DNA of 64,000 nt, taken from the NCBI GenBank assembly GCA_963422465.1, contig OY730171.1, positions 1,054,001 through 1,118,000 of the forward strand, given 5' to 3'. Both the position numbers and the translations under genes were made by a program. The notes below the pieces were generated by a model. It was not told the DNA's origin and did not search any database. It saw only the letters and a list, made by a program, of their open reading frames with translations. This document shows positions 481 to 14,864 of this stretch, one piece after another (the first letter of the stretch is position 1; every line of letters begins with the position of its first letter). The stretch comes from Lichina pygmaea (taxonomy: Eukaryota; Ascomycota; Lichinomycetes; Lichinales; Lichinaceae).

Positions 481-569
481 ACACTCCTCTCCTGCAAGAA
501 CCAACCTGCCTTCCACATCTCACCCTTAATCCTATACCTGGTTAGGATAGCACAGTACAGACCACAACA
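481..569 (+). mobile_element. 3' tail of a plus-strand gypsy LTR
   Basis: These 89 bases match the last part of the plus-strand LTR (compare 1495-1583) and end in the family terminus CAACA at 569. The fragment faces the opposite way to the LTR at 1-480. The simplest reading is an older plus-strand LTR interrupted by a later minus-strand insertion of the same family. Confidence 0.8.
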
Positions 570-1067
570 TATAATTGTGACCAGTCAGCAACACTTGGTG
601 GCTTTGTTGATGTTCAGCATGTGAATAACCAATAGGAAACTTTTGCTGTCATGTGTTATCATTCTATCTTTCCTACCACAAAAGAGATAGACTGGATGCG
701 CACTGTGAAGGAAGGTATGTTTGAGGCATGACTCACTCCACCACATGTTTTCTGATTTGCTAAACAGTCCTGAAGACATCCAACACTGGCATAAATCTGG
801 CTTCAAACCCAAGCAGGCAACGCAGTTCCCTATATGTATAGTTCAATCTAGCTGGGCAGATGTTGAGCACACTGTTTGAGAATGGAAATCACTGTGGAAA
901 CCAGCCAGGTCTGCAGCCCATCAGCTGAAAGACAAGCTACTACACAACAAGATCCTAACAGGTCTTGATGCACACTCACTGAGAATAGCCTGCTTGACAG
1001 TCACATACTACCAGTCAAAGATTGATCAGGCAAAGGATTTTGTCCAACATGGCCAGAATTACGTTGG
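570..1067 (+). pseudogene. 5' part of a serine-peptidase-like host gene, split by a gypsy insertion
   Basis: A degraded coding segment. A canonical small intron (GTATGT...GCTAAACAG) lies at 715-767. The exon from 768 to 1067 is open except for one TGA at 877-879. The frame runs to the gypsy boundary and continues in phase right of the element at 12768, where it enters a DWALVKV block. The joining residues read HGQNYVGNIWATSG. DWALV-type blocks hold the catalytic Asp in fungal trypsin-like proteins, and GDSGS follows further on. Upstream of 715 the frame is open for about 35 codons and then meets a stop. The left limit is an LTR end at 569, so the true start is lost. CpG is scarce, as in the neighbouring transposons. 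The product would have been a trypsin-fold peptidase or pseudo-peptidase; its substrate is unknown. Confidence 0.6.
1063..1067. repeat. Target-site duplication GTTGG, left copy
   Basis: GTTGG immediately precedes the 5' LTR and is repeated directly after the 3' LTR at 12763-12767. A 5-bp duplication is normal for Ty3/gypsy integration. It shows that both LTRs belong to one insertion event and that no recombination has moved the flanks since. Confidence 0.92.
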
Positions 1068-1583
1068 TGTTACGACCCCTGGGATGGGAGCCACTTATTT
1101 ATAGGCAATCAGGCTGTGGGCCAGGCAAGAGGACACCATGGAAGTCAAGTGACCAACCAACAAGGGGTCACGTGACTGTCAAGACACACAGGCAGCTTAA
1201 CACAGCATGCATGAAGCATCAAGACAATCTCACCAGTCTTGATGCAGGGTGCATAACATGGTGGGACTGTCAAGACAATCTCACCTGTCTTGACGTCAAG
1301 ACTGTCAAGACAATCTTGATTGTCTTGACAGACCAGCACTATATAGTCTAGTGATAGTTCCCTTATGGAATAATCATCTTCAACTCATGTTGTGATCCAG
1401 ACAACTAGATCTACTTCAATACAATCCTTTTGTACAAAGCCATTGATCAGGTGTCACCACCACCACATTCCACCAAACCCCTTCACACTCCTTGACACTT
1501 CTCTCCTGCGAGAACCAACCTGCCTTCCGCATCTCACCCTTAATCCTATACTTGGTTAGGACAGCACGGTACAGACTGCAACA
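1068..1583 (+). repeat. 5' LTR of the gypsy element
   Basis: 516 bp, starting TGTTACGACC and ending CTGCAACA. Compared with the 3' LTR it has lost most CpG dinucleotides (they read TpG or CpA here). A TTTATA box lies about 30 bp in, and a second TATATA lies near position 275 of the LTR. Confidence 0.93.
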
Positions 1584-2500
1584 CTTTGAAGACCCTCAAG
1601 GATGAGTACCTCAGGAGCAACCAACCCTGGATTCCCAGATGGAAAAGTTAGTGTTACCAAGCCAGACCTGTTCTACAGCAAAAGGAACAAGGTTGATGAC
1701 TGGCTTATGCAACTCCAAGTCTACTTTCAATTCCAACCAGAGATAAAGCTGCCTAAAGAAAAGTGGCCTCTCTTTACAACCACTTACATAAGAGGTAATG
1801 CTTATTGATGGATCAAGCCCTACATCAACAAACATCTCTCAGGAAACAGAGACTATGACAGCACAACAGAATAGATGACAAAATAGACATGATTCAAGGA
1901 CAAGATCAAAAGGATTCTTGAACTATCTAACAAAGACAAAGTGGCTATACAAATAATCCAGCACATCAAATAACAACACTCAGCTGCAGAGTACACCACG
2001 CAGTTCAAGCAATACTCAGTACTGACTGACTGGGACAACAACACCCTGATAGTCATGTACTGACGTGGACTCAAAGAAAACATGAAGAACAAAATCACCT
2101 TTGACAGATGAGCGGTCAACACACTGGACAAGCTCATCACACAAGCAATCAACATTGATAACAAGCTATTCAAGCAAGCGATGGAGAAACACCACAACAG
2201 AGGATACAGCCACCCCGCATGGCATGTGAGTAACCACTACAAGCTGCCTAACAAGGCACTGCCACATGACCCATATAGCTATGCACCTATGGAACTGGAT
2301 GCAGTCCACCACAAGGGAAGGTTCACAAAGGGAAGGAACAACAAAAAGGGGAAAGCACTGAAGTGCTATACCTGTGGCAAGCTAGGCCACATAGTGAAAG
2401 ACTGTTGTTCAAAGAACAAGGTGCACTGACAGCAACTTAATACACTTGACAGAGACTGGAATGTCATCAAGCCAGAGGACCCACCAGGAGAGGCTTAGCT

Positions 2501-2515
2501 ATCTCTTGAACAATA
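2501..2515. repeat. 15-bp target-site duplication of the LINE, left copy
   Basis: ATCTCTTGAACAATA occurs here and again at 7822-7836, directly after the A-rich tail of the LINE. Removing one copy and the LINE restores continuous gypsy sequence. A variable duplication of this length is typical of target-primed reverse transcription. Confidence 0.93.
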
Positions 2516-2803
2516 AAACTCTTCCCAGAACCATGTTCTTCAAGGACCATCAATTTTGACAAACACCACAATTTGTCATATGTTCTGGAAAACAGCCGAG
2601 TTCCTCTCTGAAACCACCCAAACCTTAAGGTGAAAACCCATCACCTTTGAGAATCACACCTGTTTGTCAAAAGTTGTGATCTTGAATCCACGATCTTCTT
2701 CAACAACCAGCAATCTACCCCCAACCAGAGAGAGAGTCTCAGGATAAGAGGAATAGTTAGAGTCTGACTGACTCTGGAGCTAGCAGAGTCTTTGGCTCAA
2801 GGA

Positions 2804-2930
2804 AAGTCTAGATAGGGGGTCTGGTCCCTAGTCTAGGTTAATACTTCTAGCTTTGCCCAGAGCTTAGTTGGAAAAAGCTGCCCAGGAAAGTCTAGTCTTG
2901 GGGATTGGTCCCAGGACTAGATTATTACTG
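2804..2930 (+). repeat. Two related ~44-bp modules in the LINE 5' leader
   Basis: Segments 2804-2847 and 2887-2930 share the pattern AAAGTCTAG...GGTCC...CTAG...TTA-TACT, separated by about 40 bp. Repeated leader modules in LINEs often belong to the internal promoter. That role is inferred; only the repetition is seen. Confidence 0.6.
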
Positions 2931-3009
2931 CTGGGAAACCAGGTGACTCTTCTTTCTGGCAGTACTCTGCAGACAGGAAACACCCAACCAGTGCCAAACA
3001 ATCTCTAAC

Positions 3010-4401
3010 ATGGCTCCCAAGAAGAAAAAACCCACCTTTTCAGAAAGTAACACCAGAGCTACACCAGCTATACTCTCCCAACCAGCTCCCAGTCTGGCTA
3101 GCACCCAGTCCAGCTCTCCTACCCCCCAACCAGCTCCCCAGAGTGACTACAAACTAGTAGACTCCTGGATCAAAACTCAACCAGTCCCAGAATCCATTCT
3201 GAAAAGCTGGGAAAATATCAAAAAGAACTCCTTCCCTACAGAAGCCCAGTCTAGCTCCACTGGCCTCACCAACAGAATCTTCCAGGAGCTGGAGAATATC
3301 AACAAGCGGCTGGACAAACAAGAAGCCAAGCCATCATATGCCCAGGCTGTCCAAAAATCTATTCCAGCACAAATCCCTCTACCTGCAAGAATTCTCAAAG
3401 AAGTTCTTGTACATCCTGGTATCCAGCCACCTGACATAGCTAATAGAACTCACATCCAGCTTTTCCAGGCTCTTCAAGACAGACTACCCAGCCCCTACAA
3501 CAAGCAGGTCAGAGCAGTAAGGAAACTTCCTTCAGGGGATATCCTTATTAACACAGAAAGCCAAGAGACTAAAGTCTTCCTAGAGAAAAACCCTGCCTGG
3601 GTATCAGCTATCTTCACAAAGGAAGCAACCATCCAGCCCAAGAGATTTCCAGTTCTGATCCATGGAGTCAGAACAGAAGATATCCAACCTGAAGACCTGG
3701 AGAAAACCCGCCAGATAATCCAGAACAGCAACCCATCTCTGAGCAAGCAAATCACCATCCTGAGAGCCTACTGGTCTAAGAAGGCTATAGCTCAAAAGAA
3801 GCCAGTTACCTCTCTCCACCTGGATCTGGCTACCCCTGAACAAGCCAATCTTTTGATTGAGAGTGGGCTAGTGCTGGGGCACAGGATGCATGAAGCAGAA
3901 CCTTTTCTGGCAGACACAGTTATTGCACAATGTTTCAAGTGCTTTGGCTATGGGCACCAAGCACGCTTCTGCAAGAACAAAGCTGTGTGTGGTGCCTGTG
4001 GAGGCCAGCATGAAAGGAGAGCCTGCCAAGTTCCTGAACAGCTTCTCAAGCCAAAATGCTGCAACTGCAGAGGAGCTCACCCAGCCTGGGCCAGTGTCTG
4101 TCCAGTACACCAGGAAGCAGCCAAGAAGGCAAGAGAAGCATGGAACACATGCCCAGGAAAATATGAGATCCCAACAGCTACCTCTGTTCCAGCTCTACAA
4201 CCCCCCCCAGTTATGTCTTTCCCTCTCTCTCAGTCTCTACCAGGGGGGAAAAAATATAAAACAGCTGAGCCAAGCAGAAGCTCAGAGAGACTCAGAGGTG
4301 CACTCCCAGAAGTGCAAATTCTTTCGTCAAGATCAGCCAACTCTGGAGGAAAGCTACCAGCTAACTCCTTCAAGATCTTTGATGCTGAGATGTCTGCATG
4401 A
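3010..4401 (+). CDS. LINE ORF1, Gag-like nucleic-acid-binding protein
   Basis: A 463-residue open frame. The first 130 residues are Pro/Ser/Gln-rich with a basic start (MAPKKKKPTF, possibly a nuclear signal). The middle (about 130-300) is an RRM-like or Gag-like region. Three Cys-rich knuckles follow at about 308-364: CFKCFGYGHQARFC, CGACGGQHERRAC and CCNCRGAHPAWASVC. ORF1 proteins of this type bind the element RNA and form the ribonucleoprotein used for retrotransposition. The stop TGA overlaps the ORF2 start in an ATGA at 4398-4401, so ORF2 may be translated by termination-reinitiation. No stops or frameshifts are seen. Confidence 0.9.
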   Translation: MAPKKKKPTFSESNTRATPAILSQPAPSLASTQSSSPTPQPAPQSDYKLVDSWIKTQPVPESILKSWENIKKNSFPTEAQSSSTGLTNRIFQELENINKRLDKQEAKPSYAQAVQKSIPAQIPLPARILKEVLVHPGIQPPDIANRTHIQLFQALQDRLPSPYNKQVRAVRKLPSGDILINTESQETKVFLEKNPAWVSAIFTKEATIQPKRFPVLIHGVRTEDIQPEDLEKTRQIIQNSNPSLSKQITILRAYWSKKAIAQKKPVTSLHLDLATPEQANLLIESGLVLGHRMHEAEPFLADTVIAQCFKCFGYGHQARFCKNKAVCGACGGQHERRACQVPEQLLKPKCCNCRGAHPAWASVCPVHQEAAKKAREAWNTCPGKYEIPTATSVPALQPPPVMSFPLSQSLPGGKKYKTAEPSRSSERLRGALPEVQILSSRSANSGGKLPANSFKIFDAEMSA

Positions 4402-7400
4402 AAGACACAAAGCTGACACTTCTCCAGTATAATGTGCAAAAAAGCCAATCAGTCCAAGAGCTACTGCTAGCAACCTCAGCTCTCCAAGAGGTGGACATTA
4501 TTGCACTTCAAGAGCCCTGGAAAAACCCTCACCTAGAAACAAGCACTTCAACTGTTTTCTCTTCCTTTCTTCCTCTCTACTGTTCAGAGATTGGCAGAAC
4601 ACTTTTTCTTATTAATAAAAATCTGAAACTCTCTTCTCTTCATCCTACCTTCTGGAATAAAGACTTTGTTTCTCTTGAAATCTACTTGGAAAACTCTTCT
4701 ACTTCTCTTTGGGTACATAATCTCTACTTCACCCCATCAAGTCAAGAAAACTACACAGAGGCATCAGAAGCTCTTCTCTGTTTACTCCAAAATGCTTTAC
4801 AAGAACAAGGACAACATATTCTTCTCACAGACTCAAATCTTCACCACCCAGACTGGTCAAAGAAAAGAAGACTGTACTCTGAGACTGCAAACAAGTTTCA
4901 AGACCTAATGAAAGATTTAAATCTGGATTTAGCTATTGCACCTTTCACCCCTACCAGAGCAAGATCTCTTTCTGAAAAACCATGTTCTTCTATTGATCTG
5001 TCTTTTATTTCTTCTTCTTTTTCTAACTCTCTGATTTTCTCTAAAGTGGCTCTTCAGTTCTTTCATGGGTCTGACCACAGACCTGTACTAACCTGCCTGG
5101 ACCTGGATCCTCCAAGGAAAATCTGGAAACCAGAAAGAAACTGGAGAACACTGGACTCAAACCTTGCAAGAGTAGAGTGTGAGAAGCTACACCTGCCCTT
5201 CCACTTCCAAGACAAATATGAAGTGGATGAGTACTTGGAGTATCTTGACAACTTTCTCCAAGAAATAGCAAGCAAATCCACACAGCTCCAGAAGCAATCT
5301 GGCCACTCAGTTCCCTGGTGGAATCAAGAGATCCAAAACAAGATTAAAGAGGAAAGAAGAGTAAGAAGAAAAGTGCAAAAAAGGCAAGCAAGTCAAGAGG
5401 AACTTGAGCAAGCAACTAAGCTCAAGAAAAAGGCAGTCAGAGATGGAAAACAGAACACTTTCAGACACCAAATCCATGAGCTGGCCAGCTCTTCAAAGTT
5501 CTGGAAGCTTGCAAAGTGGGGAAAGTCCAAAGCCAACAAGACTCCTGATCTTCCTCTGGTTCCTGACCTGGAAACACAAGAAGGAATAGCCAAAACCTTT
5601 GAGGAAAAGACTAAAGCCTTCTCACAACAGTTCTTTCCAAAAGCTCTAGTTCCAGAACCAGGCTCAGAAAGCTCCCAGACTATCTCTGAGATACAGCTCT
5701 CCCAGGAGGTAACATGTGAAGAAGTGGAGCAAATTCTGGCCAAGAAGAAACCTTTCACAGCAGGAGGGAGAGATAAGCTGCCAAATGGATTTCTGAGAGC
5801 TCTGGGGCCTAGGTTCTGCCAAGCTCTAGCTATTCTGACTTCAACATGCTGGAAACTGGAGTACTTCCCTGAAAGATTTAAGAGTGCAAAAACAGTCTGC
5901 TTGAGGAAACCTGGCAAGGGAACCTACAATCAAGCTAAAGCCTGGCGCCCTATAGCTCTGCTAAACACAACAGGCAAGCTGATGGAAGCTATTGCTGCAG
6001 CCAGACTAAGCAAGATAGCAGAAGAAGCTGAACTATTGCCAGATATCCAGATGGGCTTTAGGAAAGGAAGATCCACAGAAGCAGCACTTTTCCTTCTAAC
6101 CTCCCAAGTGGAAAAAGTCTGGAAGGAAGGCATGGTTGCATCCCTACTCTCACTGGATATCTCAGGAGCCTATGACAGAGTTCTCCCCAAGATACTACAG
6201 CAAATTCTGAAAAGAAAAGGAATACCTGCCTGGCTAGCTTCCTGGATCTACTCCTTCTGTGATAAGCGCTCTACCACTCTTGTCTTTGATGATTCTGAGT
6301 CTTATTCTATTCCTATTCATTGTGGAGTTTCTCAAGGTTCTCCATTATCCCCTATTCTTTTTCTATTCTACATTTCTGAATTGCATGAGACTGTGCATAC
6401 TCCCTCTTCTGGTGTATCTGCCCTGGGGTTTGCAGATGATACAAATCTGCTTGCTTTTGGTCACTCCTTGAAAAGTAACCTTCTGAAGTTAAAGAACACA
6501 CACCACAAATGTCTATCCTGGGCTGCAAGACATGGAATAGTCTTCTCACCTGAGAAATATGAAATACTTCATTTTTCCAGAAGAAGATCAGACAATCTTC
6601 AGCTCAAGCTCAGACTGGGGAATGTGATTCTCAAACCAAAAGAAGAAGTGCGAGTACTTGGAGTGTACCTAGATGCAAAGCTCCACTGGCACAAACACCA
6701 GAGGATTATTCTTCAAAAAGCACAGAAAGCACTCTCTTCTCTTTCTAGAACTTCCTATTCTACTTGGGGCTTTCCAGTTCACACATCACGTCTGGTGTAC
6801 ACTGCTATACTGAGATCTCTACTGAGCTATGCAGTGGGGATCTGGTTTAACCCTCTAAGAAAATCCTCCAATATCTCTTCTCTTGTTTCATTTCAAAACA
6901 GATGCCTAAGACTTATTGGGGGTGCCTTCAAAGCCACTCCTTCTTTTCTATTAGAGAGTGAGCTTTTTCTTCTACCTCTAGACCTATACTTTAAATTTCG
7001 CACTGCCTGTTTTCTTTCTTCTATTCAAAACTCCCCTCTCAAATACTTTCTTGACAGTATCTTTTCCACTATTTCCAGCTATGCCTCTCTCTTGAAGAAA
7101 CCTTTAAAGGAATCCTCAACTATCTCTCCTAAGTGGAAATTCACTTGGTTAAGTCAAATAACTACTAACCAGGCTAGTTCAAAGAAAGAACTACAAAAGC
7201 TCTTTACTAAAGAGTGGGAAGACCAATGGGAAGAGAAGAAAAGAAGAAGCTATCCAGGCTGGCAGACTTTCTGTCAAAAGCCACACAAAAACAATCTGAA
7301 GCTCTACAAAGAGTTACAGAAAGCTGAGGCAAGTCTGCTACTGCAAATCAGGACTGGAAGAATTGGTCTGGCAAGTTTTCTTTTCAGAGCTGGAGCTCCT

Positions 7401-7640
7401 GACTTCCCTACCCCACTATGTGTGTGTGGCCAAGCAGAAGAAACTGCAAAACATATCACCTCTTCATGCTCTCTTTATTCAAGACAAAGACAACAAGTCT
7501 CTTTTAATCCCCAAGACTTCACCACTATTATTTCAAACCCAGAGCTACTACAGAAGTTCTTGTACTGGTTTATGTCTTTGAAAAGACTAAACCAGTTTAA
7601 TCTAGCTTTCAAACTCCACTATTCCCAATCCAATACCTAG
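4398..7640 (+). CDS. LINE ORF2, endonuclease and reverse transcriptase
   Basis: A 1080-residue open frame. Residues about 1-230 are an exonuclease-endonuclease-phosphatase domain (TLLQYNVQKS at the start, LQEPW, then SDHRPVL with the catalytic Asp-His). Residues about 490-760 are the reverse transcriptase: KAWRPIALLNT, GFRKGRSTEAAL, LDISGAYDRV, GVSQGSPLSPILF and the catalytic GFADDTNLL near residue 678. A C-terminal Cys/His cluster (CVCGQ...H...C) near residue 1010 resembles the terminal zinc motif of Tad1/Jockey-group LINEs. The enzyme nicks chromosomal DNA and primes reverse transcription from the nick. It starts inside the last codons of ORF1 (ATGA overlap). All key motifs are present, so it looks competent by sequence; activity is not shown. 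Confidence 0.92.
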   Translation: MKDTKLTLLQYNVQKSQSVQELLLATSALQEVDIIALQEPWKNPHLETSTSTVFSSFLPLYCSEIGRTLFLINKNLKLSSLHPTFWNKDFVSLEIYLENSSTSLWVHNLYFTPSSQENYTEASEALLCLLQNALQEQGQHILLTDSNLHHPDWSKKRRLYSETANKFQDLMKDLNLDLAIAPFTPTRARSLSEKPCSSIDLSFISSSFSNSLIFSKVALQFFHGSDHRPVLTCLDLDPPRKIWKPERNWRTLDSNLARVECEKLHLPFHFQDKYEVDEYLEYLDNFLQEIASKSTQLQKQSGHSVPWWNQEIQNKIKEERRVRRKVQKRQASQEELEQATKLKKKAVRDGKQNTFRHQIHELASSSKFWKLAKWGKSKANKTPDLPLVPDLETQEGIAKTFEEKTKAFSQQFFPKALVPEPGSESSQTISEIQLSQEVTCEEVEQILAKKKPFTAGGRDKLPNGFLRALGPRFCQALAILTSTCWKLEYFPERFKSAKTVCLRKPGKGTYNQAKAWRPIALLNTTGKLMEAIAAARLSKIAEEAELLPDIQMGFRKGRSTEAALFLLTSQVEKVWKEGMVASLLSLDISGAYDRVLPKILQQILKRKGIPAWLASWIYSFCDKRSTTLVFDDSESYSIPIHCGVSQGSPLSPILFLFYISELHETVHTPSSGVSALGFADDTNLLAFGHSLKSNLLKLKNTHHKCLSWAARHGIVFSPEKYEILHFSRRRSDNLQLKLRLGNVILKPKEEVRVLGVYLDAKLHWHKHQRIILQKAQKALSSLSRTSYSTWGFPVHTSRLVYTAILRSLLSYAVGIWFNPLRKSSNISSLVSFQNRCLRLIGGAFKATPSFLLESELFLLPLDLYFKFRTACFLSSIQNSPLKYFLDSIFSTISSYASLLKKPLKESSTISPKWKFTWLSQITTNQASSKKELQKLFTKEWEDQWEEKKRRSYPGWQTFCQKPHKNNLKLYKELQKAEASLLLQIRTGRIGLASFLFRAGAPDFPTPLCVCGQAEETAKHITSSCSLYSRQRQQVSFNPQDFTTIISNPELLQKFLYWFMSLKRLNQFNLAFKLHYSQSNT

Positions 7641-7789
7641 ATTCTCTTCTCTTACCAGAAACTTCAAGATTCCTTTTGTTACATTCCCTAGTCACACCCT
7701 GCCTTCAGTTTTTATCCCTTCAAAGGTTTTCTGAAGGAGTTCACTATTAGCTAGAAGATCTGCATGGCTGTAAAGCTACTACCAGTGTA

Positions 7790-7821
7790 AGAATCAAATA
7801 AATAAAAATAAATAAATAAAA
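7790..7821 (+). repeat. A-rich (AAAT)n 3' tail of the LINE
   Basis: Short tandem AAATAAAT units end the LINE immediately before the right copy of its target duplication. Simple-repeat tails in place of poly(A) are common in Tad1/I-like LINEs. Confidence 0.85.
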
Positions 7822-7836
7822 ATCTCTTGAACAATA
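7822..7836. repeat. 15-bp target-site duplication of the LINE, right copy
   Basis: Identical to 2501-2515. Gypsy sequence resumes at 7837. Confidence 0.93.
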
Positions 7837-10800
7837 GGACAACTACAATCAGATATTGGAAGCAGCCCACCAACTGGTAACATCAGGAGGCAAGGACCTA
7901 CCAGAACAGACAGGTCAGGACAAGGGATAGGAGCCCTTAACCACCTCTGATGGGGACTGAGACAAACCTGTGTCTATCAAAGAAGAAATACCATAAGGAA
8001 GCTATGCTTACAGCATGGACCCACAAAACCTACAGCACAGCAAACTACAGTGGAGGTTTTGCACGAAACACTACTACACCTACCACAAACAACCACAAAG
8101 GTACAGAGGACATTCACTCTACCGCGCCACCTGCCACAAGTATTGGGTCAATTGCAAGAAGGATGCGTGTGAGATCCATCTTTGGGATAAATGCCAACAC
8201 ACCGCATTCCCTGGGCACACACATGATTAGCACAAACACCTCATGTTCCTACAGCAAGGCAACAACCACGACTGCTATGTCAACAATTGGCAGTACTGCC
8301 TCAAACCCAGATGTGACAAGCATCAGCAAGACAAATTCATGAACAGATTTCTCAGAACTGATGGGAATGGCTGGACCTATTGCCCAGTCAGTGGAAAAAC
8401 ACTTTGATCAGGAAAAGATTGAACTCTCTTGTCAAGGGGTGACATCAGGAGCTCAACAACATGACCCCTAGCAACGCAAAGCAACTGCGATTACCTGTGT
8501 CACTACACGCCAACACACCAGTACAGACATACGCACTTGTTGACTCTGGAGCCAGTGGGAACTACATTTCAAGACAACTTTACAACACCCTCAGCACTGG
8601 AAGGAGACGCAAGCAGCAGCCCTATCAGCTCGCGATGGCAAATAGACAGACAGAGCTAGTCTGCCATAAGACGCAGCCAATGGAAATGGTTACCAGACAC
8701 CATGCTGAAAGGATCCACCTTGATATCATCAAGTTAGCCACTCAGGATATCTATTTAGGGATGCCTTGGCTAAAGAAGCACAACCCAGTTGTTAACTGGA
8801 GGACAGAAGTACTCACGTTTAGGAACTGCACTAACAACACAGCTCAGACCTGTTACCAGCCGCAGAAGGCGTGGACAGATAAGGGAAGGAGTCCTCAGTG
8901 GAACCTCACTGACAGAAAGGACAACTCTCAAGAGAAGAGGTCCACCTTGACAGGCACACCCCAGAACCAGGTGGCCAAACAGTCAGAGATGAAGAGAGAG
9001 GAAGTTGTTAACCTTCTGGAGATCCCTGAAGAGTACTGACCTGGGTATGATAACCTCTTTCAGGAAGAGACAACAACAGCAGTGTTGCCTAAGCACCAAC
9101 CTTGGGATTATGAGATCAAGTTGCAACCAGGGACAGAGCCAGGATTTAGACCAATTTACCAGTTATCAGAGAAAGAGCTCCAAGTACTTCGCGAGTACCT
9201 GGAGGAAAACCTGAAAAAGAGTTTCATTCAAGAATCTCAATTGCCAGCAGGATACCCAATACTATTTGCACCAAAGAAAGACAGAAGTCTTCAACTTTGT
9301 GTGGATTACAGGAAACTCAACAACATTACCATCAAGAACTGATATCTGTTGCCAAATGTGAACGAATTGTGAGACAGGATCAGCCAAGCTACAATCTTCA
9401 CCAAGCTGGACTTGAAAGAAGCATACAACCTGATACGCATGAAAGAAGGAGAAGAATGGAAGACAGCCTTCAGAACCTGATACAGACACTACAAGTATCT
9501 GGTTATGCCATTCAGACTTACGAACACACCAGCAACATGTCAAGCATTGATCAACAACATTATCAGAGCACACCTGGACCAAACAGCTATCGCCTACCTG
9601 GACAACATTCTTGTCTACTTGAACACGCAACAGGAACATACCAAACATGTGAAGAATGTTCTACGATGCCTACAAAAGGCAGGGCTCAAGCTCAACCCAA
9701 AGAAATACAAGTTCAACAAACTGGAAGTTGAATTCCTCAGATACATCATAGGGATCAAAGGGATCAAGATCAACCCTGAGAAAATCAAAGCAATTCAACA
9801 ATAGCCAACACTGACATCAGTTAAGGAAGTACAAGCCTTCCTAGGATTTACCAACTTCAACTGACAGTTCATCAAGAACTACTCACAGATAGCAACACCA
9901 CTGACAGAACTCACGAAGAAGGACGTGGAGTACTGGTGGACAGAGAGATAACAAAAAGTATTCTAACAGCTCAAGGACACTTACACCAAGGAACCAGTTC
10001 TCCTCAACTTCAAGACAGGCCAACCAACACGAATCAAGACAGACACTTCAGATCAGGCAGTGGGAGCATGCTTATGCCAACAGGCAGATGACAAGTGGCA
10101 CCCAGTTGCCTACTACTCACGAAAAATAACACAAGTGGAACAGAACTATGATATCCACGACAAAGAGCTACTGGTAGTCGTCAACGCACTCAAACACTGG
10201 AGAGTGTACGTGGAAAGCAGTTCCAAACTCACTATTCTCACAGACCACAAGAATCTGACAACATTCATGATAACCAAGAAGCTGAACAGATGACAAGTCA
10301 GATAGGCTGAACTCCTAGGGCAACACAAGTTCAAGATCTTGTACACCCCCGGACAAGATAACAGGAGAGCAGACACACTAAGCTGACAAAAAAACTACAT
10401 AGAAGATGATGAACACCAAGGAACAATCTTACAGCAGGACCAGCAAGGAAACCTGGTACCTTGACCACAGATCAACAAGCTCACAGCAGAAGACACTGAA
10501 GAATTAATAAGGAACTACTACGACAACCCAGCACATGGTCACCCAGGAATCACCAAGACTACAGACCTTATCCAACAGGCAGGGAACAATGTCATCAACC
10601 TCTGACAACATGTCACAAGCTACATCAGCAAATGTCTACTGTGCCAGAAAAACAAATACGGAAGACACAAGCTATATGGAGAAGGACACCCGAACATGAT
10701 ACCAAGAGGCCCATGGGAAGATGTGTCAATAGACTTTATCACAAAGCTACCCAAGTCCAAAGACCCAGTCACAGGAATCACCTACGACTTAATTATAGTG

Positions 10801-11842
10801 ATCGTGGACAGATTCACAAAATACCTAATAGTAGTACTATTCAAGGAAACCCACACAGCAGAGCAGTTGGGACACCTCCTACTGGACAGATTAGTCAGAG
10901 ACCACGGAGTTCCAATCACGGTCATTACTGATAGAGACAAACTCTTCACATCCAACTACTGGAAAACAATCAGTGTAGCCATGGGAACAAAACCCAAGAT
11001 GTCTACAGCCTATCACCCACAAACTGACGGCCAGACAGAGCGAGCAAACCAAGTCCTGGAGACTTATTTGCGGCATTACATCAACCAGACCCACAGCAAT
11101 TGGGTACCATTATTACCAGTGGCACAGCTGGCAATCAACCAGCACAGATCAGACTCAACAAAGGAATCACTATTCTTTGCCAATTTTGGACAGCACGCAA
11201 ACATCAGAATGCTAAGCAGAGCTTCACCAAACATGGAGAAAGCACTCCAACATGACAAGCTCCTACGACAAACACACACAATAATGAGGCATTACCTTTA
11301 AAAGACCTCAGAAAAGATGCAACGCCAAATGGACAAAAAATTGAAAATGGCACCTCAGCTGAAGAAGGGGGATAAAGTCTACCTCCTCACAAAAAATTGG
11401 AAAGTCAAGAAACCAAGAACAAAGAAACTGGACCATGTCAAGGTCAGACTATTTTCAGTCGAAGAAAGAACTGGACCAGTCAACATCAGACTGCGACTAC
11501 TGAGAGACGCTTGGGTACACCCAAACTTTCACATCTTAATGATTGAATTAGCCGACCAGAGCACACCCTTGCAGGAAACATTTCATTACCAACCAGAGGA
11601 AGAACAGGAATTCGAGGTCGAACAGATCTTGAAGAGAAAAGGTCAGCGATACCTTGTCAAGTGGAAAAACTACCCAGACTCGGAAAATACCTGGGAACCA
11701 CTCAGGAATCTCGCGAACTGCCAGCTCCTCCTGCAGCAGTTCCGGCAGAAGCAGGACTGAACAGCTCAGCCTGCAGCACAGACACGTCAATGACCGTCGC
11801 CGACAAGTCTTCACCATCCACCTCCATTTCAGCAACAAGGCA

Positions 11843-12202
11843 CTAGAGCTTCTTCTTTGCTTGACCCTCAGCACCTTCAAGAACCTTTCGCTTTCGGGAC
11901 ACACAAGCCTGCAGCTTGGCAAGCTGCTCAACAAGAGCATCCCGCTTGGCCTCATCAACAGCCAAATCCTCACGAAGGTTATCTCGGGTCATGTTCAGCG
12001 ACTCCCAAGAAAGCGACACACAGGACTTCCCACGACAAGTGCATTCAGCGCACTTCAACTTATCGTTGTCGTCAGACATTCGGAAGTAGGGCTTGTGGTT
12101 CAAAACACAGAAGTCACACAGAGCAAGCAACATGAAGTTATGATCACAGATCTGGGCTACCAGTTGTTTTCGGTAAGCAGAGGCACGTGATTTCGCAGAC
12201 AT
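11843..12202 (-). CDS. Antisense Cys-rich ORF carried by the gypsy element
   Basis: A 119-residue open frame on the strand opposite to gag-pol, between the chromodomain and the 3' LTR. It starts MSAKSRASAYRKQL; the ATG is at 12202-12200. Residues about 28-62 hold CDFC...KCAEC..RGKSC, a paired-Cys layout able to bind zinc. Residues about 70-119 are Glu/Lys/Leu-rich and probably coiled coil, ending KKKL. Small fungal proteins with a similar Tyr-Gln-Leu start, CxxC..CxxC..C module and coiled coil are familiar near transposons, but I cannot name a function. It remains open although the sense genes of the element are broken. It could be an accessory gene of the element or a captured host segment. 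Confidence 0.55.
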   Translation of the reverse strand: MSAKSRASAYRKQLVAQICDHNFMLLALCDFCVLNHKPYFRMSDDNDKLKCAECTCRGKSCVSLSWESLNMTRDNLREDLAVDEAKRDALVEQLAKLQACVSRKRKVLEGAEGQAKKKL

Positions 12203-12246
12203 ACTCAAGAATTCATCAGGACGATGAATGAAGAAGAGGAGGGTAG

Positions 12247-12762
12247 TGTTACGACCCCTGGGATGGGAGCCACTTATTTATAGGCAATCAGGCCGCGGGC
12301 CAGGCAAGAGGACACCATGGAAGTCAAGTGACCAACCAACAAGGGGTCACGTGACTGTCGAGACACACGGGCGGCTTGACGCAGCATGCATGAAGCATCG
12401 AGACAATCTCACCAGTCTCGACGCAGGGTGCATAACATGGTGGGACCGTCGAGACAATCTCACCCGTCTTGACGTCGAGACTGTCGAGACAATCTTGATC
12501 GTCTCGACGGACCAGCACTATATAGTCCGGCGATAGTTCCCTTATAGAACGATCGTCTTCAACTCATGTTGTGATCCAGACAACTAGATCTACTTCAATA
12601 CAATCCTTTTGTACGAAGCCATTGATCAGGTGTCACCACCACCACGTTCCACCAAACCCCTTCGCGCTCCTTGACACTCCTCTCCTGCGAGAACCAACCC
12701 GCCTTCCGCATCTCGCTCTTAATCCTATACTCGGTTAGGACAGCACAGTACGGACCGCAACA
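12247..12762 (+). repeat. 3' LTR of the gypsy element
   Basis: 516 bp, the same ends as the 5' LTR. It keeps many CpG sites that are TpG or CpA in the 5' copy, and differences between the two are nearly all of that kind. Confidence 0.93.
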
Positions 12763-12767
12763 GTTGG
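12763..12767. repeat. Target-site duplication GTTGG, right copy
   Basis: Matches 1063-1067 and restores the reading frame of the interrupted host gene. Confidence 0.92.
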
Positions 12768-13659
12768 AAACATTTGGGCAACTTCTGGGCTGCGCTCCAG
12801 GGGCACAACAGCCACTCCTTGGTTGCTGGATTGGGCACTGGTCAAAGTAATCCCTGATCAAGTTGGGGAGAACCTTGTAAGTTCTTTGAGAATAAGGATG
12901 AAACTAGAAGGCTAATAATGTTTAGCTCCCATCACCCTTGGATATCCCAAGGGAGGCCCAGGATCACTACAAAGTCCTTGACAATCCAGCTGTGATGCCT
13001 GGAATGGAATGTTTCAACTGTTCGACTGTGAACGCTACAGCGAGCAGTGGGAAGAAGAAGATGAGTGTCACGACTGATTGATTGATTAGGGAGAACTAGC
13101 TAATCATCTATATGTAGACACGAAGCTGATGTTTGCCTTAGAGCGACGGAAGGCTCTAGAAGGCACGAGGCGGATCCATGCAGGATCGACGGGAGACAGC
13201 GTCGACGGGAGACGGCAGAGACGGCACTGGGTGGCTCCATGCCGGATCGGCTGCACTATGCAGCAGCGCTATGCGGCAGCAGCAGGATCAACGTCAAACA
13301 TCAACAAGTTGTCATCCTACTTCAAACATGGGCAAACATTGGAGGGAACTTGTGGCCACTACAGTGGGATAACGCAGGTCAACTTCAAGGATTGTCTACG
13401 ACTGCAGGACAATCAGCCAAGAGACATGGTCATGTGGGATCACTGCATTGTGGGATTGAACAATATCCCTTTTGTGGCTGGTGGGGATTCAGGGTCATTC
13501 GTGTTTGACACAGAAGGACAATTTGTTGGGATGCTCATGGGAGCAGATGGTAGAGCAAATACCGCAACTGTACTATCAGCGGAAGCTCTGGTCAAAGACA
13601 TCCTGGACACCATCAGCGCCCGGGATGTAAGGCTGACTGGTACCCAACCTTCAGTCTGA
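12768..13659 (+). pseudogene. 3' part of the split serine-peptidase-like host gene
   Basis: This continues the frame from 1067. Residues read GNIWATSGLR then LLDWALVKVIPDQVGENL up to 12876. A 49-bp intron follows (GTAAG at 12877, branch-like GGCTAATAA, AG at 12925), then an open exon 12926-13076 (LPSPLDIPREAQ...) that ends in a stop. A last open part ending at 13659 contains YFKHGQTLEGTCG and GGDSGSFVFD (about 13475-13505). GDSGS is the catalytic Ser motif of trypsin-fold proteases, and the DWALV Asp lies upstream; the His site was not located. A CpG-rich patch at about 13137-13270 interrupts the family-like sequence and looks foreign to it. The exon joins after 13076 are unclear. It is a dead gene because the gypsy insertion splits it. 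Confidence 0.65.
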
Positions 13660-14864
13660 GTATCAGCGCAGCATCAAATGGGAGGTCCTGGCACAGCAAA
13701 GGTGGTGATAGCAGGTAGTGTTGATAATCACTTATATCACCAATGAAAACTTGCTGCTCTTCTCTGTTAATTCATGATTCTCACTGAAGTGTATAAAGCT
13801 ACCACTGCTATGTTTGTATGCCTACTTAGTTTACTTTTCAGCAAACTAGGTCAACCTTTGTGTTGATTGTGCAACAAGTACACTCTTAAGATCTACTGAG
13901 TACAACTTGTAGTGGTCCCTTTGTCCTCTCCATAGCCCTTGTACAGTAGCTTACCACTTAGTGGTACGTACAAGTACGTACATACGTACCATTGAGTCTA
14001 CGGTAACCCCTAAGTTAGGCTACCGGGGCGTGCGAGGCCACTCAAACAAAACACCAGAGGAGACCCCCCCCTACAAAAGGTGCCTACTTACGTACGTACA
14101 GTTGCCCCTCATGTATAAGAGATGCTTCGTATCTCCGCACTAGCAAAGCCACCACGGACTCTACGGTAAGATCTAAGACCAGCCACGACATCATCCACCG
14201 ATGTTGACCTAGCGTTCCGGTCGCGTTGACTGATTCCATCTACCGTAGAACTACTCGTACGTACATACGTATGTACACGTGCTACACATGCTACCGTGTA
14301 TTGCGTGACAGATACCGTAGGACCGTTGCAGTACTCCGTACATACGTACTTGGCTACAGTACCCCGTGCTTATAGTACCCCTCTAGTCCCCTCGTACGAA
14401 GTATAGGTCCGCTATGCCCCCTCTGCCGTGACACGTGCACAGGAGCGAACAAAGTGAGCATGAAATGGTGTACGGTATGGATGTCGAGATGACTATGGAT
14501 GACGGAAGATGGTGATGCTCATTACCTAGAGGGTAGATAAGGAGGCCCACATGCTGGGCCGGACTTGTTTACAGATGGTATGGTGTTAGTGTAGCCTCGT
14601 GCGGTGCATACTTGAGTAATACGGTACCGGTAGTAGAGAAAATTATCGAGTATCCGAAACGGAAAAATGCCATTGGTGTCTAGGTATCCACATCTAACGT
14701 ACACAGAATCGTAAAAGTCGTCCCAAATCATCATCATCATCATCATCGCGATCGTCACGTCATCGAATGCGCAAGGGCCGGTGACACATCAAGGAGTCGG
14801 AGGAAAGTACACGACACCGGCCCGTCGAGAAGTCCAGCGCGATCCCCGTCTAGGTGGAGTCGGT
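13660..14864. other. Intergenic spacer rich in GTAC palindromes
   Basis: No supported gene. It holds many TACGTAC and GTACATACGTAC clusters (for example 13963-13990, 14258-14275, 14330-14350) and a short (ATC)n run near 14729-14747. Base composition changes from the CpG-poor island on the left to CpG-containing DNA here. Confidence 0.6.

Follow-up and report, generated by a model that had tools for sequence, protein, structure and literature searches.

The window analysed here, a 64,000-nucleotide stretch (C3:1054001-1118000) of a genome of 32.5 Mb in 8 contigs, carries in its first 14 kb the right edge of a retrotransposon island, and within this edge lie the remains of a host gene for a serine-peptidase-like protein. 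The gene is a pseudogene: it is homologous to an uninterrupted locus elsewhere in the same genome (L023 on contig C4, which served as the paralog reference), it carries six stop codons, and it has received three primary insertions, namely gypsy-1 in exon 1, gypsy-2 in exon 2 and what reads as a solo long terminal repeat (LTR) of a second family, family B, in exon 3. Gypsy-1 in turn harbours a reversed solo LTR, and gypsy-2 a long interspersed nuclear element (LINE); these two secondary insertions bring the number of mobile elements to five, and the gene can be traced through all of them over about 21 kb.

Exon 1 starts left of position 570 of the window, where at least 791 nt more of it, abutting a gypsy LTR, were located at C3:1046587-1047377, 7.4 kb outside the window. 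Inside the window the gene runs on the forward strand and begins with the remainder of exon 1 (575 to 714), which contains a C-x-H motif with the presumed catalytic His. Intron 1 (most likely 715 to 775) would be 61 nt long, as in the paralog, and is followed by the first part of exon 2 (776 to 1067). The remainder of exon 2 (12768 to 12876) contains the sequence LDWAL with the presumed catalytic Asp, and intron 2 (12877 to 12925; 49 nt) agrees with that of the paralog in both place and length. The first part of exon 3 (12926 to 13018) ends in the five bases of the TCAAC duplication, and its remainder (13306 to 13659) contains GDSGSFVFD with the presumed catalytic Ser and runs to the stop codon. 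Six exon pieces hold the six premature stops, four of them upstream of the window, one in 575 to 714 and one in 776 to 1067; right of gypsy-2 there is none before the terminal stop codon. Beyond each of the three primary insertions, gypsy-1, gypsy-2 and the family-B LTR, the gene resumes in the same phase.

The original prediction, made from the letters of the window alone, had proposed that the frame ending at 1067 resumes in phase at 12768 through a 5-bp duplication, entering DWALVKV and later GDSGSFVFD. Alignment with the paralog bears this out, and both motifs lie in the phase of the paralog. It had also been expected that the two flanks of gypsy-2 would match neighbouring parts of one protein, and the uninterrupted paralog supplies such matches: a left piece (883 to 1065; 61 amino acids) and a right piece (13306 to 13656; 117 amino acids) both match C4:2196787-2197564, on the same strand and in the same order as in the window gene, with 262 bases between the two matches. 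L023 has two small introns, and carries neither an insertion nor an internal stop across the exons compared. Taken as eight pieces that sum to 1874 nt, the window gene could be placed on L023 at a fixed offset without gaps, with identities of 60 to 82% for the single pieces and 65% overall; in a tblastn comparison, the largest piece aligned over 264 amino acids with 0 gaps. Codon positions 1, 2 and 3 differ between the two loci at 33%, 26% and 49% of sites, respectively, a pattern which means that the two loci diverged in part while still constrained.

That the flanks are unrelated sequences whose phases agree by luck is exceedingly improbable, and nothing that speaks for it was found. Both flanks match one uninterrupted paralog in order, the introns stand at the paralog's positions, and all five in-window pieces outscore their shuffled counterparts (30.8 to 119 bits when aligned with the paralog locus, compared with 19.6 to 23.5 bits for the best of 200 shuffles each), which rules out a chance match of the gene pieces. 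The earlier view is right in that a single serine-peptidase-like gene of the host was interrupted by a gypsy element, into which a LINE then inserted, and right also as to the intron at 12877 to 12925. Its first intron exists as well, but not with the boundaries 715 to 767, the end of which is out of phase; 715 to 775 is most likely, as it gives both the length and the phase of the paralog.

The Ser of the GDSG motif is present in all six family loci seen (the window, L018, L019, L020, L021 and L023). The C-x-H motif is shared by the window, L018, L019 and L023, with Arg in place of the presumed catalytic His in L020, and the Asp of the LDWAL-like motif is kept in the window, L018, L019, L020 and L023, L021 being without a match at that place. 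Among PA-clan serine peptidases, the nearest Pfam family is S64, the family of yeast Ssy5. The likeness lies in the GDSG motif and in exon 3, which matched S64 in three of the four members compared: L019 passes the cut-off (25.4 versus 23.6 bits), and L020 (21.5 bits) and L023 (21.3 bits) fall just under it. The difference is that the window's own exon-3 piece had no S64 match at an E value of 0.1, where only sub-threshold matches to S32, Trypsin_2 and S3 appeared. The first 310 amino acids of L023 compared gave no Pfam family at an E value of 0.1, and a search of NCBIfam gave matches only far below the cut-off. In a profile search of solved structures (60 of 77 sequences listed; E values up to 1), the top two entries were Tako8, with no stretch passing alone, and below them many trypsin-like enzymes matched around the GDSG stretch with E values of 0.007 or weaker; these matches are taken as support at the clan level only. 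A predicted model of exon 3 of L023 alone was unusable (mean predicted local distance difference test score, pLDDT, 41.9). The gene product is serine-peptidase-like and would be of the trypsin-like (PA-clan-like) kind, with presumed catalytic residues. One relative, L018 (C4:48326-51613), lies about 50 kb from a contig end. Several stops interrupt it, its matches to exon 1 and exon 2 stand about 500 bases apart, and it is a second dead copy of the family.

Gypsy-2 (1068 to 12762, forward strand) is a chromodomain Ty3/gypsy element bounded by two LTRs of 516 bp each (1068 to 1583 and 12247 to 12762) with TG...CA ends. Its right target duplication, GTTGG at 12763 to 12767, is identical to the left copy at 1063 to 1067. 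When its pieces were scanned separately, zf-CCHC, protease, RVT_1, RT_RNaseH, rve and Chromo were found in this order; protease, RVT_1, RT_RNaseH and Chromo scored above the cut-off, and rve exactly at it. The LINE within gypsy-2 occupies 2516 to 7821 on the forward strand (5306 bp), between 15-bp duplications at 2501 to 2515 and 7822 to 7836, bounds that were fixed by comparison with L024, a LINE-free copy of the gypsy family elsewhere that also served as the reference below. It contains a frame of 484 amino acids (2947 to 4401), for which no Pfam family was found at an E value of 1, a frame of 1083 amino acids (4389 to 7640) with Exo_endo_phos_2 and RVT_1 above the cut-off, and an A-rich tail, and it has no LTRs. 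Another copy, L058, is surrounded by a 12-bp duplication, and the family has at least 22 long copies at 98 to 100% identity, the window copy included (22 scored of 1231 candidates).

Gypsy-1 belongs to the same family as gypsy-2 and extends from C3:1047378 to position 569 of the window; both of its LTRs are present. The tail of its 3' LTR (481 to 569, forward strand) is followed by the right duplication TATAA (570 to 574), which equals the left copy, TATGA, at four of five bases. The 3' LTR is split by the reversed solo LTR, which lies on the reverse strand at 1 to 480; it measures 643 bp in all (C3:1053838-1054480), starts 163 bases left of the window and is flanked by a perfect duplication, ACACT. 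What had been noted as LTR pieces of the same gypsy family abutting position 569 comprises two separate things, the tail of gypsy-1 and, at 1 to 480, the reversed LTR. Within the reversed LTR, 42-bp tandem units were seen at 166 to 353, and the LTRs of the family measure about 516, 559 and 600 bp, in steps of about 42.

The third primary insertion, at 13019 to 13300 (forward strand; 282 bp), has TG...CA ends, starting with TGTTCGACTG and finishing with CAAACA. Exon sequence adjoins both copies of its TCAAC duplication, the right one being 13301 to 13305. A genome search with 12763 to 13659 found this repeat at no fewer than 39 other places (40 scored of 90 candidates), and all seven other copies examined have the same ends and a perfect, site-specific 5-bp duplication. 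Among the flanks of eight copies, some stretches of L002, L005 and L007 are 71 to 96% alike to one another. Taken together, 13019 to 13300 reads as a solo LTR of family B. The open frame that enters GDSGSFVFD starts at 13090, inside this LTR. The downstream frame previously drawn to 13659 does belong to the gene, except for the 282 bp of 13019 to 13300, which are foreign.

The gene is strongly depleted of CpG dinucleotides. Only 10 of 152 CpGs of the paralog are kept in the window gene, and 102 now read TG, CA or TA; at non-CpG sites, the same transition is found at 134 of 737 C or G, and the reverse transition at 96 of 821 A or T. The ratio of observed to expected CpG is 0.07 to 0.33 in four stretches of the gene versus 1.03 in the paralog. 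In gypsy-1 it is 0.14 to 0.23 over most of the element and 0.00 in the 89-bp tail, with 4 and 6 CpGs left in its LTRs, and in the reversed LTR it is 0.49. The two LTRs of gypsy-2 disagree: the ratio is 0.22 for the 5' LTR but 0.99 for its 3' counterpart. The family-B LTR stands at 1.04, its 21 CpGs comparing with 18 to 20 in seven other copies. Three places in the genome match a C5 DNA methylase model with scores above the Pfam cut-off; two of these matches cover nearly the full length of the model, and the third covers part of it.

It appears very likely that a duplicated trypsin-like peptidase gene of a presumed fungus became functionless and was taken up into the margin of the retrotransposon island. 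The genome is presumed to be fungal on the word of the original prediction and from its size and small introns. The CpGs of the dead gene and of gypsy-1 would have been lost together through methylation and deamination, prior to the arrival of gypsy-2 and the family-B LTR; the grounds are that these two elements, where they adjoin the last exons, are rich in CpG although the exons on either side are poor in it. Since the family-B LTR is rich in CpG and the exon around it is poor, this LTR most likely came in once the exon had decayed. For gypsy-2, the CpG-poor last exons around a CpG-rich 3' LTR and family-B LTR suggest likewise that the gene decayed first, although this argument is weaker because the two gypsy-2 LTRs disagree. 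The death of the gene and the arrival of gypsy-1 would both be early, with neither placed first, followed by gypsy-2 and then the LINE; the reversed LTR would be later than gypsy-1, and the family-B LTR later than the CpG decay. Accounts of three events in order, as given previously, kept gypsy and LINE in the right sequence but miscounted, since three primary insertions and five elements make the order longer. At present the locus would have no function except as a fossil.

The gene was probably dead before gypsy-2 landed, so that gypsy-2 would have split a pseudogene. The opposite view, implied by the original prediction, is that gypsy-2 killed a gene that had been alive up to then, with decay following only afterwards. 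Gypsy-2 does sit in a coding exon with the frame exactly continuous across it, and the three exon pieces to its right are without an internal stop, all six stops lying to its left. Nonetheless, exons 2b, 3a and 3b together with intron 2 have kept only 3 of 34 paralog CpGs, whereas the adjoining 3' LTR has 35 and the LTR in exon 3 has 21. Gypsy-1, moreover, looks older, given its few LTR CpGs and its mutated duplication. It is unlikely that gypsy-2 was the gene's killer, and we regard a gene alive up to that insertion as improbable; an element that visibly splits a gene need not be the one that killed it.

Several points weigh against the favoured account. Methylation is the cause that we infer for the CpG loss; the CpG content of the gene before its death was deduced from paralogs with which it has about half of its residues or fewer in common; and the stops may have arisen before or after the insertions. 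The catalytic activity of the family is presumed, and one member, L020 (C1:1272450-1275791), has Arg where others carry the presumed catalytic His. The 5' LTR of gypsy-2 has 6 CpGs versus 35 in the 3' LTR, and conversion could explain a CpG-rich 3' LTR; among six LTRs, no non-CpG variant is private to the gypsy-2 pair, and the 3' LTR differs at non-CpG sites from L015 by 5 plus a gap, from L013 by 6 and from its own 5' LTR by 4. If the 3' LTR was converted, the order of decay would rest on the family-B LTR alone. On this alternative account, a CpG-rich copy was the donor in a gene conversion that replaced the 3' LTR, whose CpG content then says nothing of its age.

The two LTRs of an element are expected to be identical at insertion, yet a comparison of the gypsy-2 pair over 516 sites gives 37 differences, every one a transition: 32 are CpGs present in the 3' LTR only, one is a CpG in the 5' LTR only, and four are other sites. 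An alternative sorting (29 CpG, 2 TA and 6 other) leaves this one-sidedness unchanged. Among 14 full-length pairs, strong one-sided CpG loss was found in three, gypsy-2 (1:32), C1:1996k (1:21) and, in the opposite direction, L085/L086 (24:1); C5:1050k gave 2:10. These 14 pairs are a non-random set, ten coming mostly from lists ranked by likeness to gypsy-2 and the rest from a list-order sample, with the split pair of gypsy-1 excluded. That sample yielded 4 full pairs from 10 copies fetched, five others having partial LTR matches only and one being without a 5' LTR match. A general bias of CpG loss toward the 5' LTR was considered and rejected, as the list-order sample held one strong pair pointing the other way and three pairs whose bias was not significant. 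Conversion draws favour from the 32:1 ratio, from the existence of two further strongly one-sided pairs of opposite direction, and from a 3' LTR that shares no private variant with its partner and is only 5 to 6 non-CpG differences away from two other copies. On the other hand, when non-CpG sites are counted, the 5' LTR shows 4 differences from its own 3' LTR, fewer than from any of four other copies (9 to 23, numbers swollen by doubly lost CpGs); and no near-identical donor emerged, the best other copy reaching 97% (40 scored of 1078 candidates). Nor is there a single clear tract edge: relative to L024, CpG retention is 2 of 25 in the left internal part and climbs irregularly towards the right, through bins as low as 0 of 7 and 1 of 6, until the last 925 internal bases keep 17 of 24. 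Overwriting of the gypsy-2 3' LTR is possible, though less likely than not. For one-sided CpG loss in LTR pairs at large, local methylation and gene conversion are both possible causes, and under either of them LTR dates that count CpG sites are unusable here: the raw divergence of gypsy-2, with 33 of its 37 differences at CpGs and 4 not, misdates the insertion.

The LINE is almost free of CpG, with 11 versus 248 expected in the window copy and 14 versus 249 in L058, yet it keeps long open frames and its family has multiplied recently. Its TG plus CA content is only 1.12 times expectation, and arginine in the window copy is encoded by 66 AGA/AGG versus 8 CGN codons. The nest may record a CpG-directed mutational silencing by the host that wrecks CpG-bearing elements as well as bystander genes and that the LINE family escapes by shedding CpGs, a tentative reading that we hold with less than even confidence. 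The CpG-free insert would then be the part of the nest beyond the reach of CpG methylation. Against this, the internal part of the gypsy family in L024 is also CpG-poor (0.37), and the loss of CpG may therefore be a general trait of the elements here; low CpG alone is insufficient to show escape, and the CpG-free LINE is a lead, not a result. If true, it offers a test of transposon evasion of CpG-directed silencing. A literature search, judged mainly by titles and the openings of abstracts, found neither this locus nor a CpG-free fungal LINE.

The island extends to the left outside the window, where the gypsy family has a third copy, L025 (C3:1034101-1044100), in reverse orientation, with both LTRs and the duplication CCTTG on both sides. 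At about position 14000 the CpG ratio jumps sharply from 0.3 to 1.0, and GTAC-rich simple sequence stands at the border (13940 to 14400). Beyond the island the ratio is 1.06 to 1.09 (1.06 over 20 to 64 kb of the window) and GC content is mostly higher. A blastn search of 14001 to 64000 with the LTR, the internal part, the LINE and the family-B LTR gave no match at an E value of 1e-5, and 12700 to 14000 gave no Rfam match at gathering scores.

Nested retrotransposon islands and pseudogenes disrupted by transposable elements are known phenomena, and chromodomain Ty3/gypsy elements are known as chromoviruses. Gypsy-2 resembles the latter in its domain order from zf-CCHC to chromodomain, in the LTRs of 516 to about 600 bp and in the 5-bp duplications; nothing notable sets it apart, and the copy is broken. 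The locus resembles nested islands and disrupted pseudogenes in having retrotransposons inside retrotransposons, target duplications and a dead host gene at the island edge, and differs in that five elements and an uninterrupted paralog allow the gene to be followed over about 21 kb. Amselem et al. 2015 (PMC4352252) describe CpG-only C-to-T signatures in the transposable elements of all three basidiomycetes of their survey, two of which show them weakly. The route they propose is methylation and subsequent deamination, with a link to a Masc2-like Dnmt1. The likeness is the loss of CpG to TpG/CpA in repeats, and the difference is that a host gene has here decayed together with the elements and that some LTR pairs have decayed one-sidedly. 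In Marasmius oreades, repeats are reported to be more CpG-methylated than the genome elsewhere, and active elements to be lowly methylated (PMC9674265). The present locus would be in keeping with this picture. With a dead gene, its uninterrupted paralog, five mobile elements and exact joints, the stratigraphy is very clear, and the nest is a clear fossil record of ordinary transposable element biology, unusually well preserved, rather than a new kind of system.

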